DNA from: Psychromonas sp. SA13A
GTDB lineage: Bacteria; Pseudomonadota; Gammaproteobacteria; Enterobacterales; Psychromonadaceae
Assembly (NCBI RefSeq): GCF_011378715.1
Contig: NZ_WTKU01000003.1
Coordinates: 186,001-250,000 of the forward strand
Length of the DNA: 64,000 bases
Direction: 5' to 3'
A program made the position numbers and the translations under genes. This document shows, in pieces, positions 5,328 through 12,538 of the stretch (positions are counted from its first letter, which is position 1; every line of letters starts with the position of its first letter). A model generated the notes under the pieces. The model ran no database searches. It was not told where the DNA came from and worked only from the letters and a program-made list of their open reading frames with translations.

Positions 5328-5825
5328 GTTGCTAATAAACTAATCTAACGCATTATCTATTGATACCTGTTAAATGCTGTTTCGTTATTCTTTATGTAAA
5401 GTGCTGCTTCATTATTGAGCTACTTAATAGACCACGTAATGGACCATTTAATAGATTACGTAACCAAGGTAATTCGTTACCAAAATTAACATTTTCCTTT
5501 TATCCATTTTTCCTGACGTTCAAAAAATAACTTGGTGCTTATTACGCGAATCCAAGGAGTAATTAGGTTGCGATTATTTGAAACAATAGACTGCTACAGA
5601 TAAGTGTTATATTTTTTTGATTTATTAATAATTAATTTTAATGCGTTGATAAATAATGATATTTACATTTTATTGCTTTATAAAGGATGTTTCGAATTTG
5701 TATTAAAATTTAAGCGTGCTATAAATAATTGTCTAATTTAATTTTTATCAATTCGATAAATTAATATCATAAATAATAATCTATTGCGCTAATGCATCTG
5801 ATTCAGTAATTACAATATTATTAGC
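5328..5825. other. AT-rich intergenic region before the riboswitch
   Basis: About 500 bp. The first part has short degenerate repeats (tagaccacgtaatgg-like blocks near 5430-5470). The rest is very AT-rich and includes the promoter candidate for the riboswitch transcript. No gene seen. Confidence 0.5.
5784..5812 (+). promoter_or_regulatory. Candidate sigma-70 promoter of the riboswitch transcript
   Basis: TTGCGC (5784-5789) and TAATTA (5807-5812) are 17 bp apart, and the predicted start falls just before the riboswitch aptamer. The match is modest and position is the main argument. Confidence 0.35.
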
Positions 5826-5827
5826 TA

Positions 5828-5915
5828 GAAAAAGGCAACTTAAGGGAAACCTTAATACGCAAAACCACCGGCCTATTGACAATTTATTGTCTACGGTAGC
5901 GGAGTTACCGAGGCC
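5828..5915 (+). ncRNA. c-di-GMP-I (GEMM-I) riboswitch aptamer
   Basis: The segment has the diagnostic elements of the class in order: AAGGCAA, a perfect TTAAGG-GAAA-CCTTAA hairpin with GNRA tetraloop, ACGCAAA, CCACCGGCCTA, a variable hairpin (TTGACAATTTATTGTC) and CGGTAGCGGAGTTACCGAGGCC as the closing receptor hairpin. These correspond to the conserved blocks of Vc2-type GEMM RNAs that bind cyclic di-GMP. It sits about 85 nt upstream of the start codon of the FN3 lipoprotein gene. No strong intrinsic terminator is visible in the leader, so control may be at translation initiation. The G of the usual GCAAAGCC block is A here. Confidence 0.88.
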
Positions 5916-5999
5916 ATGATACTTCTCATTTATCCTCTTTATTTTTTTCTTCTGTTATATATAAAAATTTCTGAATCATCACTTTTGTTGGAGACAAAA

Positions 6000-6605
6000 A
6001 TGATGATTTTAAAAACCACGCTATTTAAAGCGATGTTATGTCTTTTTCCTGTTTTATTAATGGGTTGTGGTTCATCTGGCTCATCAAGTTCAGAGTCAGC
6101 TAAAGTATCAGAACAAGCTGATTCAAGTGAAGAATCTGCTGCTAAAGAGTCATTAGATACAATAATCGCCACAGAAGATGATGCAGTAGAAGACTCTACT
6201 TCAGAGAACACTCTAGTTGAGGACTCAAGAAGTGAGACTCCTATTCTTAGTGGGTCGATTGATAATGGAGCGATTGTTAATGAATCTATTCTTGAAGAAG
6301 AAAGCACACAACAAACGGATACGTCTTCAAATACCGATGATTTACTCAGCACTCCTGAGTCAGAACAAGCGAGTGAAGTCGATTTATATATCACTTGGGG
6401 TGATAATTCTGATAATGAAGTAGAATTTATTATCGAGCGCCGTATTCAATCTAATGTTGATTATGGAACTACGTATTATGTTGCTGAAAATACAACATCA
6501 TATAATGACGAAGGTGTTCAAGTAGGTGAAACTTACTGCTATCGTGTTAGTGCATCAAACAGTATTGGTAAATCGTCATCGTCTGAACAATGTATAGAAT
6601 TATAA
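6000..6605 (+). CDS. Serine-rich lipoprotein with FN3-like domain
   Basis: A lipoprotein of 201 residues starting at the ATG at 6000, which has TTGGAGAC as ribosome site; an upstream in-frame ATG at 5916 lies against the riboswitch and lacks one. The N-terminus has a signal with lipobox LLMGC. A long Ser/Glu/Asp-rich, probably disordered stalk follows, for about 100 residues. The C-terminal ~80 residues (DLYITWGDNSDNEVEFIIERR ... YCYRVSASNSIGKSSSS) read as a fibronectin type III domain. Envelope-anchored FN3 proteins often act in adhesion. The c-di-GMP riboswitch in its leader fits a surface or biofilm role, but this is inference. Confidence 0.8.
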   Translation: MMILKTTLFKAMLCLFPVLLMGCGSSGSSSSESAKVSEQADSSEESAAKESLDTIIATEDDAVEDSTSENTLVEDSRSETPILSGSIDNGAIVNESILEEESTQQTDTSSNTDDLLSTPESEQASEVDLYITWGDNSDNEVEFIIERRIQSNVDYGTTYYVAENTTSYNDEGVQVGETYCYRVSASNSIGKSSSSEQCIEL

Positions 6606-6621
6606 TTTCAGTCCAAATCTA

Positions 6622-6645
6622 AGCCAAACACTCTGTTTGGCTTTG
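6622..6645 (+). terminator. Hairpin terminator after the FN3 lipoprotein gene
   Basis: AGCCAAACA CTC TGTTTGGCT followed by TTG. The stem is a perfect 9 bp but the T-tract is poor. The same AGCCAAAC/GTTTGGCT hairpin recurs in repeat family A near 10710. Confidence 0.55.
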
Positions 6646-6746
6646 CAAATAAATCACTTTCTTATTCCATATCAAAACCCAGTGCTGGCATCGTACTGAT
6701 ATCAATACTATACGTTTGCGCTGATCATGGTATTTATCGTAGTATT

Positions 6747-6840
6747 TTATCCTGTTTCGCTTTGCTAAAAGCAATTGATCATTTGCTAAGGCTTAACGTG
6801 GCGGGAGCTAACTATGTTGAGCATGGTCTTATTTGAAGTG
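6747..6840. repeat. Dispersed repeat family A, diverged 3' part
   Basis: Aligns with about 10725-10805: CCTGTTT.GCTTTG, AAAAG.AATTGAT, and a TGAG.CATG.T.TTATTTGAA end block are shared in order. The 5' part of the family is missing or too diverged to recognise. Confidence 0.45.
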
Positions 6841-7144
6841 ATTTTTAGATCATGGTGCAAAAGGTAATGCTTTCTCGGTTAGCTCTACACTCTCATTAGT
6901 CATTTAAAAGTAACCTATCCCAATTATAAGATTCTAATCTAAACGTAGAGCAAATTGCCTTAGATAAATAAAGTTATTATAATACAATTGGCGCATTCAA
7001 ATTCTTACCTATTATTAACTATTAATTTTGCCAATTCTGCTGAAATTAAATATATGACTGAAGATGATTTAAATCAATGGGGAAGGCAATACTGACCCCA
7101 TCCATTGATACTTTTTTATTACCTGCTTATTCAAAGACTGGAAG

Positions 7145-8695
7145 TTATTTAAAGCGGATCACTAGCTCATGAAGATCGTCAGCCGTTTTACTCAGGTCAT
7201 TAATAGAAGAGGCTGCATCGCTTGTAATAGTTACATTGTCATCGGTTAAGTCTGAAATACTGACTACTTGGCGATTAATATCTTCAGATACGTGAGTTTG
7301 CTGTTCAACAGCTGCGGCGATTTGGATAGACATATCTGAAATTTTACCAACAGAGTCAACAATGCCATTAAGCATTTCCCCACTCTCTAATACCCTTTCT
7401 AAACCGTTATTTGCTTCAATGGTGCCTTTTTGTACGTGAGCGACGGCATCGTCTGTTTTTTGGGTTAATAATTCAACGATATTATAAATCTCACTGGTTG
7501 AATCTTGTGTATTCTTGGCAAGGTTCCTCACTTCATCGGCAACAACCGCAAAACCTCTGCCTTGTTCGCCTGCTCGAGCGGCTTCAATCGCGGCATTTAA
7601 TGCAAGTAAATTGGTCTGTTTTGCAATTTTCTCAATCATATTCGTCGCTGTAGCAATTAACTTTGCTTGTTCTGATACGCTAATAACCGATTGACTAATG
7701 GTTTGCACCGTTTTTCGTAGTTCATTGATTGAATCACTGGTAACTTTAGCTAGTTGTTTACCTTCTGTAGCAAGCCCAAATGCAGTTTCAGTATATTTTG
7801 CCGTATCATTAACTCGTTCAGAGACCTCTGCAATTGTTGATGTTATTTCATTCATTGCAGTTGCAACTTGAGTGGTTTCTGACTGTTGTTGCTCCAGGCT
7901 ATTTTTAGAGTTTTGCACGAGTGTCGATGATTGATGAGAGCTTGCAGAAACTTTTTTTGCCGCATCTTCAATACGGCTAATAATAGTTGTTAAATGAGCC
8001 TGTTGACTAAGAGTTGCCACTTCTAAACTACCCAGCATACCAGTGTTGTTTGTATAGGATTGCACCGCTTGTTCGTGAGAAAAGTTATGTTTTAAACATT
8101 GAGACAAATTAGTAATAATGCGTTTTTTTACCGCGCTAACCCAAATACCATATAAAATAGTTGAACAAACAAGAAGGTTAAATGCAACGGGTATTGACCC
8201 TGCTATATAACTAATAATAGACAAAATCAACATGACACTTATAAATATAGTTGGCGTTGAAACAGACGCAGGTTTCTTCAGTCCCTTTCCTGCAGTTACT
8301 CGTTTATAAAGCTTTTCTGCTCTTTCTACATTCTCCTGTTTAGGGCATGACCGAACAGACTCATAGCCAATAATTACACCATTTTCAGTCACGGGTGTGA
8401 CATAGGCATCAACCCAATAATATTGCCCATCTTTGCAGCGGTTTTTAACCAAACCCATCCAAGGTTTACCTTGCTTTAGGTGCTCCCACATTACTTCAAA
8501 TACTGCTGGTGGCATATCAGGGTGTCTGACTAGATTATGCGGTTGGCCAATTAACTCATCACGCGAAAAACCACTTATTTCAACAAAAGCATCGTTACAA
8601 TAAGTTATATTGCCATCGTTATTTGTTACTGAAATTAACTTGGAATCTGGAGAGAATGTTTTTCGTTGATCGATAACGGGCAGATTTTTACGCAT
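7145..8695 (-). CDS. Aer-like methyl-accepting chemotaxis protein with PAS
   Basis: A 516-residue chemoreceptor. Residues about 20-120 form a PAS domain ([49 protein letters not shown]) close to that of the aerotaxis receptor Aer, which holds FAD. Two adjacent membrane segments lie at about 148-187 with no periplasmic sensor domain, as in Aer. The C-terminal half is the cytoplasmic signalling coiled coil; its conserved hairpin tip reads [20 protein letters not shown]. The CheR-docking pentapeptide at the C-terminus is absent. It likely senses redox or oxygen and signals to CheA/CheW. The start ATG is preceded by AAGGTTAAA. It appears monocistronic. Confidence 0.92.
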
Positions 8696-10828: not shown

Positions 10829-12538
10829 TCATAATTTTTCTATTCCTGCTTTAACCGCATTTATTAATAATTGTAAGGTGCCTTTTTTCTGAGAAGGCTG
10901 GATTATCTTTATCTCCGGCTCTAATAAATTTAATAGTTCAATTAAAGTGTTTTTTTCATTCCCAAGAAAATCACGTATATTGATTGATTTATACCTGTTG
11001 AAAAGAAAATCAGCAAACTCTCCAATATCTCTAATTGACCAGTTGTTAATGACTTTAAACCATTGTTCAGAAGTGTATTTATTAATAAAGTCATCGTGTT
11101 GGAATTTATTATATATTTCGATATCTGTCTCTACCCATGATTTTTTAATTTTTTCAAAAAGTGAGTCATTATCCTCTGCTACTTTTTTAATCGTCGATAT
11201 TTCTTTTTGATTATTAAATTTATCAAGTATTACCTGTGTATAAATTTTCAATGATTGGTGCCTATTTTCTAAAGAAAGTAGGTCAAAATTCTTTTCTTCA
11301 CATAAATCTGAAATTTGATTAAGAAAAACTATTTTATCTCCTTCTATAAATTCTTGATCTAATAAATAAAGGTAGAAATCACAGCCTTCAAACCATTTCG
11401 ATATCGGTACCTCAATGTCTTCAAAAATAAATTCTTCTAGTTTTTGTACCGAATCAGAAAACTCAGTTTTTGATAACGTATAACCTCTTGAAAACATCAG
11501 CTTGTCGATTGGATCATCTTTAATAGGTAATCTACCTAATTCATTTATTAACGGGGGAAGGTGTGCTTTACCGCTGCAATATTCGATAATTTTTTTTGAT
11601 GGTACGTTGATCGTTCTATATTTCGTAAACTCATCTTCTTGATTATCTTTTTTTGGATTACTTGGATTAAGTATGACGTCTAATCTAGATTGATCATTTA
11701 GGCCTTTAATTATTTCCTCTGAACTTTTTCCCAAACAATAATGTAAATAAGAAATTCGTAGAACGTCTTTAATTATTAATTCCATACTTGGATCAACATC
11801 AATAATCTTATCATTGGTTATTATTCTGTGAATATTTGCTAACCTATTGGCAGCGCGTTTTAGTGCCCTTAGATTGCTAAAATTTAGTGTGTTAACTTCT
11901 CGTCCAATGATATGTTGGTACTTGTCAAAGTAGACGCAGTTTTGAAATGCAATTGTTAATATTTCTTGATTTGTTATCTGAAAATAGACGCGATCAGAAA
12001 AAGACTTTTCAACCATCGCTTTATCAATTTTTGCTTTCTTACCATTCATAACAAAAATAAACTCTAGGTTTTTTTCGTTAATAAGTTGTAGGCATTCACC
12101 TACGATAATTTTTTCTAAATCAGCATTATCAACACGTTCTAGATCGTCTAGTATTACTGTGACATCTGCAATTCTATTTAACATCGCATGTTTTACTGCG
12201 CCGGTTGAGCCCTTGAGAATAGATGCTACCGTCCCAGCACCTTCACTTGTATGTTTTAATATAGAAAAAGCACTGTCTTTGAGTTTATTTATAAGGCTTG
12301 GATCTAAATTTTCCGATAAATAAACTGAAGATATTAATTTATCTCTAAAGTCATCGATATTAGATAATCCAGTTAAAGAAAAGAAAATAACTTTTTTTTC
12401 TTTAACTTCGAGAATTGGTATTAATTCATTTTTAATGTAATGGGTTTTACCAACTCCCCATTCGCCATCAAGTATAACCATTGATGGAAATGAGTCGTCC
12501 TTAAGTAATGCTAATATTTGTTCAGTTGTTTGCGACAT
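10829..12538 (-). CDS. KAP-like P-loop NTPase
   Basis: A 569-residue protein. Walker A is GEWGVGKTH (residues 25-33) and Walker B is VTVILDDLER (about 126-135), with a sensor-like FIFVMNGKK strand after it. The GEWGxGKT plus DDLER pair is characteristic of KAP-family and related STAND-like P-loop NTPases, several of which act in phage defence or membrane-associated signalling. The insert between Walker A and B is short, with only a weakly hydrophobic stretch (residues 100-120), so the membrane helices of classic KAP proteins are not evident. The C-terminal 350 residues are charged and helical with no domain I recognise. The gene is more AT-rich than its neighbours and stands alone between a dispersed repeat and housekeeping genes. 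Confidence 0.75.
   Translation of the reverse strand: MSQTTEQILALLKDDSFPSMVILDGEWGVGKTHYIKNELIPILEVKEKKVIFFSLTGLSNIDDFRDKLISSVYLSENLDPSLINKLKDSAFSILKHTSEGAGTVASILKGSTGAVKHAMLNRIADVTVILDDLERVDNADLEKIIVGECLQLINEKNLEFIFVMNGKKAKIDKAMVEKSFSDRVYFQITNQEILTIAFQNCVYFDKYQHIIGREVNTLNFSNLRALKRAANRLANIHRIITNDKIIDVDPSMELIIKDVLRISYLHYCLGKSSEEIIKGLNDQSRLDVILNPSNPKKDNQEDEFTKYRTINVPSKKIIEYCSGKAHLPPLINELGRLPIKDDPIDKLMFSRGYTLSKTEFSDSVQKLEEFIFEDIEVPISKWFEGCDFYLYLLDQEFIEGDKIVFLNQISDLCEEKNFDLLSLENRHQSLKIYTQVILDKFNNQKEISTIKKVAEDNDSLFEKIKKSWVETDIEIYNKFQHDDFINKYTSEQWFKVINNWSIRDIGEFADFLFNRYKSINIRDFLGNEKNTLIELLNLLEPEIKIIQPSQKKGTLQLLINAVKAGIEKL

Follow-up and report, generated by a model that had tools for sequence, protein, structure and literature searches.

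The closest described systems are GEMM-I riboswitches of Vibrio cholerae and GEMM-Ib elements of Geobacter. Vc1 lies upstream of the attachment factor gbpA and is described as a positive regulator (PMC4744006). The same report names G20, A47, and C92 as ligand contacts and counts the Vc1 selectivity base as G12 from the mapped +1 (PMC4744006). The two GEMM-I switches of V. cholerae are reported to give responses of opposite sign, neither of them through termination (PMC6366702). In Geobacter GEMM-Ib, replacement of A20 by G is reported to shift selectivity from cGAMP to c-di-GMP (PMC6456294), and base 20 is presented as a selectivity factor and not a hard filter (PMC9262584).

A GEMM-I aptamer was located in a 64,000-nucleotide stretch of DNA from Psychromonas sp. 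SA13A, called the window below, in which position 1 is the first nucleotide. The whole 64-kb window was searched with cmscan at the Rfam gathering thresholds. The single match above threshold was RF01051 (c-di-GMP-I/GEMM-I) at 5824-5912 on the forward strand, with a score of 73.1 bits (E 2e-12) compared to a gathering score of 35 bits. The match spans model positions 1-87 of 87 and is untruncated, which places the element in RF01051 by score. The first-pass annotation had proposed a GEMM-I aptamer from the letters and suggested an Infernal search around 5800-5950, and both the score and the retained contact residues bear it out. The alignment shows a GAAA tetraloop of the GNRA type on a 6-bp P2 hairpin. 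Residues were checked individually in the window and compared over 16 leaders. The ligand contacts G20 (G5834), A47 (A5861), and C92 (C5908) are all intact, as is the interhelical pair between C5858 and G5899, which we take to be C44-G83 in Vc2 numbering. The selectivity base G5834 corresponds to G20, so the window aptamer does not carry the A20 that marks cGAMP-sensing GEMM-Ib. P3 contains the only non-standard pair, C5866-A5903. The first-pass annotation also read an A in place of G in GCAAAGCC and suggested that it may tune affinity. The letter is correct, but A5864 pairs with U5905 at a position where the Rfam consensus is g-c. The affinity-tuning reading is unsupported because A5864 lies in a compensated P3 base pair, and tuning through the A in GCAAAACC was ruled out by the cmscan alignment. 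The genome holds two GEMM-I matches, 84.7 and 73.1 bits, the latter being the window element. Sequence comparison thus gives good support for a genuine full-length GEMM-I riboswitch aptamer, ordinary in kind, and family membership together with the intact contact residues makes c-di-GMP its very probable ligand.

The aptamer precedes a gene at 6000-6605 on the forward strand that encodes 201 residues from ATG 6000 or 200 residues from the conserved ATG 6003. The aptamer ends 90 nt before ATG 6003. CTGATG replaces ATGATG in G009, G019, and G020, and the second ATG alone is conserved, which makes 6003 the likelier start. An in-frame ATG at 5916, at the end of the aptamer, would give 229 residues; it was rejected as the start since stops break the frame in two orthologous loci (L083 and L084). 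The frame from 5916 is open in the window, and also in P. arctica (L082), for which a frame other than this ATG-led one was listed. The protein has a lipobox, LLMGC, recognized by eye, with the cysteine at position 22 or 23 depending on the start; this cysteine is invariant across six aligned homologues. The 104 residues that precede the folded domain comprise 25 Ser, 17 Glu, 10 Asp, 10 Thr, and 3 Lys plus Arg (35 Ser plus Thr and 27 Asp plus Glu), and most of this stalk is modeled with very low confidence.

The C-terminal FN3 domain (6375-6602, forward strand) was delimited by an AlphaFold block with pLDDT of about 73-90, by Foldseek, and by alignment. The strands of the beta-sandwich lie within residues 126-200 of the model, and two cysteines of the domain are invariant in 17 aligned sequences. 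The best Foldseek row is an FN3 domain (E 4.6e-4, probability 1.00), and nine rows have E ≤ 0.001, with TMt of 0.55-0.72 for seven short targets. The Pfam FN3 model (PF00041) scores 13.2 bits (E 0.11), which is below its gathering score of 25 bits, and two homologues are likewise sub-threshold at 16.5 and 15.7 bits. A profile built from eight long sister proteins matches titin chains across the FN3 region (E 3.7e-14). Four other Psychromonas genomes encode full-length homologues that share 48-83% identity with it, the closest being that of G003. Pfam and NCBIfam contain no family above cut-off for the protein, in agreement with the first-pass statement that it is not named in any family known to the annotator. 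The lipobox, the stalk composition, and the fold model likewise uphold the earlier description of a lipoprotein with a Ser/Glu stalk and an FN3-like domain. We predict that this lipoprotein sits in the outer membrane and exposes its FN3 domain on a flexible acidic stalk. The locus is flanked upstream by an AraC-type gene and downstream by a PAS-MCP gene on the other strand. Elsewhere in the window, a 569-aa protein (10829-12538, reverse strand) has, as judged by eye, a P-loop motif close to the N terminus; it has no Pfam match at E 0.001.

GEMM-I elements were surveyed in 60 genomes, 24 of them Psychromonas including the source genome, with stricter filters that may lose weak matches. They are present in 13 of the 24 Psychromonas genomes, with 26 matches in total, and 16 of the 26 stand ahead of genes that share one FN3 domain family. 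Six of these genes encode short lipoproteins (G000, G003, G009, G019, G020, and G022) and ten encode long secreted proteins of about 470-505 residues (G000, G003, G006, G008, G009, G016, G019, G020, G021, and G022). The long proteins carry the FN3 domain followed by two beta-sandwich repeats that resemble carbohydrate-binding modules or lectins, with modest scores and a middling model. Among the remaining ten elements, three precede other genes (G001, G013, and G002), one is at a contig end, and five, of which G006 has two and G021 three, precede a PapD-type pilus-chaperone gene. PapD_N is above the Pfam cut-off in both clusters, and a third G006 copy precedes what by eye appears to be a broken repeat of the pilus-chaperone cluster. 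These series run on the reverse strand of L080 (2508-2583, 9038-9113, and 9510-9585) and L081 (2805-2880, 3258-3333, and 3740-3815). The association of riboswitch and FN3 gene is not obligatory: all nine loci examined of family members without a gathering-level match also lack RF01051 at E up to 1, and they include two long-protein genes (L087 and L096).

The short lipoproteins and the long secreted proteins probably belong to a single small regulon of Psychromonas surface proteins under c-di-GMP, since the long sister proteins bear similar leaders. GGDEF matches in the source genome number 62, including a few that are halves of one gene. An adhesion role, as suggested in the first-pass annotation, would fit a lipoprotein whose secreted sister proteins carry lectin-like beta-sandwich domains. 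This unnamed target family with its riboswitch appears so far only in Psychromonas, in a comparison that set aside 80 loci outside the genus. In G016 and G008 (L071 and L072), the long FN3 gene that follows the riboswitch is itself followed, about 1 kb further on, by a second FN3 gene, which encodes a lipoprotein. An operon of the two was rejected because they are separated by an open frame of 200 or 208 codons on the reverse strand.

The 16 leaders of FN3-family genes were aligned; they are related and hence are not independent observations. An AT-rich stretch ending in TAGCTAG lies directly upstream of the aptamer in all 16, with the variants TAGCTTG (G019a), TAGCTGG (G021a and G006a), and CGCTAG (G022b). 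This shared flank suggests duplication of the promoter region together with the aptamer and the ribosome site as a single module. The window leader (start at 5759, 5775, or 5792; end at 6013/6014) shares 83-85% identity with those of the orthologues L083, L005, and L084, and the coding stalks of these three give no blastn match to the window stalk. A possible transcription start is A5823 on the forward strand, 6 nt past a TACAAT -10-like box at 5811-5816, as judged by inspection. The selectivity G would be RNA nucleotide 12 of a transcript that begins there. A consensus promoter scan does not list the 5823 site, and it returned 10 promoter-like sites compared to 9.4 in shuffled sequence. A terminator search over 5330-7150 returned none (shuffle mean 0.9), as the first-pass annotation had noted by eye, and termination in the expression platform was discarded as a candidate. 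Control of the lipoprotein gene is therefore probably translational.

Two mutually exclusive helices can form at the 3′ edge of the aptamer. A short P1 pairs GCU 5824-5826 with GGC 5912-5914; it was found by inspection and imposed as a folding constraint. The H2 hairpin (5910-5937) pairs GAGG 5910-5913 with CCUC 5934-5937 and has an inner stem of AUGA 5916-5919 with UCAU 5926-5929. They exclude each other because both use the same GG(C), and imposing P1 thus removes H2 by construction. P1 is no more than three pairs long, and imposing it on the window leader carries a penalty of about 9 kcal/mol. H2 is the best local fold anchored on GAGG or AAGG in 16 of 16 leaders; G021a and G006a close it with AAGG/CCUU, and inner stems and lengths differ among leaders. 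The fraction of shuffles that fold as well ranges from 0.01 to 0.20 per leader (0.054 in the window), so single-leader energies are not all striking and the support for H2 is its recurrence. With the aptamer imposed, the H2 probability is at least 0.81 in 14 of the 16 full leaders, 0.35 in G009a, and 0 in G020a. In the full window leader it is 1.0 with the aptamer imposed versus 0.02 unconstrained; the unconstrained fold pairs GGCCU with AGGCC and disrupts the aptamer.

The ribosome site is predicted to be enclosed by a second hairpin, H4 (5973-6009, forward strand), which has 16 pairs, the loop GGA at 5990-5992, and the start codon 6003-6005 wholly within the stem. Its predicted stability in the window, -13.9 kcal/mol at 37 °C with z of -5.1 against mononucleotide shuffles, increases to -23.9 kcal/mol at 10 °C; for both H2 and H4, such shuffles are weaker controls than dinucleotide shuffles. 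The Shine-Dalgarno GGAG (5990-5993) is invariant over 14 distinct alignment rows. In 13 of the 16 leaders H4 can form such that GGAG lies within or at its loop and its stem takes in the start codon; for some of the long-protein leaders the scores are weak (z -1.3 to -3.4). G022b retains the outer stem of the window H4 through a C-G to U-A double change. Column-wise covariation over both leader groups is not usable for H4 because the groups pair in different registers. The first-pass annotation had recommended structure prediction for alternative pairing at the ribosome site. Such pairing is predicted in the form of H4, which in the window is closed in all modeled states.

These features are brought together in a proposed mechanism in which a translational c-di-GMP-I riboswitch controls the single FN3 lipoprotein gene; to this explanation as a whole we assign an even chance of being correct. 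c-di-GMP would bind the leader aptamer and favor P1, which is incompatible with H2; the overlap of the two is visible in the sequence, and we infer its dependence on ligand. Formation of H2 or P1 would then set the effect of the spacer on a ribosome site that is shut by H4 by default. H4 itself is predicted, and we infer its control by H2 or P1. Once P1 forms, the 3′ flank AUGAU would be free to catch the H4 5′ arm AUCAU before the 3′ arm is transcribed. In this way high c-di-GMP would favor translation of a surface protein that serves the sessile lifestyle, making the leader an ON switch.

Transcripts truncated at the Shine-Dalgarno were folded for the six short-lipoprotein leaders. Pairing of the H4 5′ arm with the aptamer flank is 0 to 0.1 without P1. 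With P1 at 37 °C it is 0.07 in the window and 0.56, 0.90, 0.04, 0.13, and 0.99 in the other five, so capture is strong in three of six leaders and small in the window, where it reaches 0.31 at 10 °C. The start codon is unpaired with a probability of only 0.00-0.06 in every state of these six leaders. H4 is closed at equilibrium with and without P1, and no thermodynamic switch is therefore predicted in the window group. The unconstrained window fold, with H2 at 0.02 and the aptamer disrupted, also speaks against the proposed mechanism. The modeling leaves a slight lean toward an ON switch for window-type leaders, because of the truncated-transcript folding, which is weak evidence, and the gbpA precedent.

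The alternative with the best claim is an OFF switch, which we consider plausible though less probable than the ON reading. Here c-di-GMP would favor P1 at the expense of H2, and the freed pyrimidine strand or an intact H4 would shut the ribosome site; the lipoprotein would then belong to a motile or dispersing state. Several long-protein leaders bear CCUCCAC, which is complementary to GUGGAGG at the Shine-Dalgarno and is freed as H2 opens. G019a, G009a, and G020a lack H4, and their Shine-Dalgarno can pair with this distal pyrimidine strand. Imposed P1 raises distal pairing of the Shine-Dalgarno, the OFF direction, in six of ten long-protein leaders: from 0.01 to 0.43 in G008a, from 0.35 to 0.84 in G019a, and by 0.01-0.08 in four others. 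It is unaffected when P1 is added to the aptamer in the other four, at 1.0 in G009a and G020a and 0 in G021a and G006a. The window H4, shut in every modeled state, is also in keeping with an OFF switch, but a hairpin that is always closed would leave little to switch off. Window-type leaders also lack the CCUCCAC anti-Shine-Dalgarno, and their distal pairing is 0 in every state. Constrained folding gives opposite tendencies in the two groups, and a single switch mechanism for all leaders was rejected. Across the leaders the aptamer hardly changes, while the expression platform closes the ribosome site in one of two ways.

A different role for H4 is improbable: the ligand effect would be small, and the GGA loop would mainly bind a regulator such as CsrA, with the riboswitch modulating this binding. 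A GGA in a hairpin loop over the Shine-Dalgarno is a classical CsrA site. In 13 of 16 leaders the H4 loop holds or adjoins the Shine-Dalgarno GGAG, and the genome has one CsrA gene. The CsrA consensus has an A two bases before GGA, and the base at that position in the window differs from it. That the riboswitch is a decaying copy without function is very improbable: the C5866-A5903 pair, the disrupted unconstrained fold, and aptamer-free family members (L087 and L096) would fit decay, but the aptamer scores 73.1 bits with its contact residues kept, and the leader retains 83-85% identity to those of orthologues whose coding stalks have diverged.

The aptamers of the leader family differ at the selectivity base. 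Of the 16 leaders, 13 have G at position 20 and three have A, namely G022b (L073), G021a (L075), and G006a (L076); by eye, the base is C in six of six further G006 and G021 copies. Since exchange of A20 for G shifts selectivity in Geobacter GEMM-Ib, the three A20 leaders may have a changed ligand preference by analogy, for cGAMP or for both dinucleotides. The broader proposal is that the ligand has switched within one leader family, with G20 leaders sensing c-di-GMP and A20 leaders 3′,3′-cGAMP or both, alongside the C20 copies at the pilus-chaperone genes; we regard this as a rather unlikely possibility. The DncV-type cGAMP synthase model PF21654 matched none of four genomes but also none of 14 controls, and the result is uninformative for that reason. 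The base-20 variants offer a direct test of riboswitch ligand change inside one regulon. In two GEMM-I elements outside the FN3 family, pairs beside the ligand pocket appear by eye to be swapped in compensation: 21-46 in G013 (L078 1012-1086), and 21-46 and 22-45 in G002 (L079 2698-2776, reverse strand).

The locus adds an unnamed surface-protein family, in the marine genus Psychromonas, to the targets of GEMM-I riboswitches. Vc2, upstream of VC1722 in V. cholerae, is of the same aptamer class and, as described, also exerts control without termination. Its target, presumably tfoY, is not a surface protein, in contrast to the window gene. Searches of the literature on Psychromonas with riboswitch or c-di-GMP listed no study of a c-di-GMP riboswitch in the genus and no title or abstract opening that describes the FN3 regulon, and a search combining c-di-GMP-I riboswitch, fibronectin type III, and lipoprotein gave none on it among the matches listed. 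The 16 aligned leaders form a natural series with a near-fixed aptamer and a varying expression platform, which is useful because the V. cholerae GEMM-I mechanism was called unclear or unknown in 2016 (PMC4744006). The Geobacter GEMM-Ib elements share the scaffold, and their A20 is shared with G022b, G021a, and G006a; the window differs in having G20, and the pilM example is described as acting on transcription (PMC9262584). TasL of Vibrio resembles the window protein as a predicted lipoprotein with FN3-like repeats near its C terminus, but it is large, has five repeats, mediates cell contact, and is tied to type VI secretion, and the words c-di-GMP and riboswitch are absent from the main text of its description (PMC9040878). 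Vc1 is a close parallel: it is a GEMM-I element with the same contacts, it stands before the surface-attachment gene gbpA with no apparent terminator, and its transcript begins close to the aptamer, as proposed for the window (PMC4744006). It differs in that its target is unrelated, its +1 is separated from the start of gbpA by 244 bp, and its leader as described there has no anti-Shine-Dalgarno (PMC4744006). Compared to Vc1, the window-type H2 and H4 recur across sister leaders.
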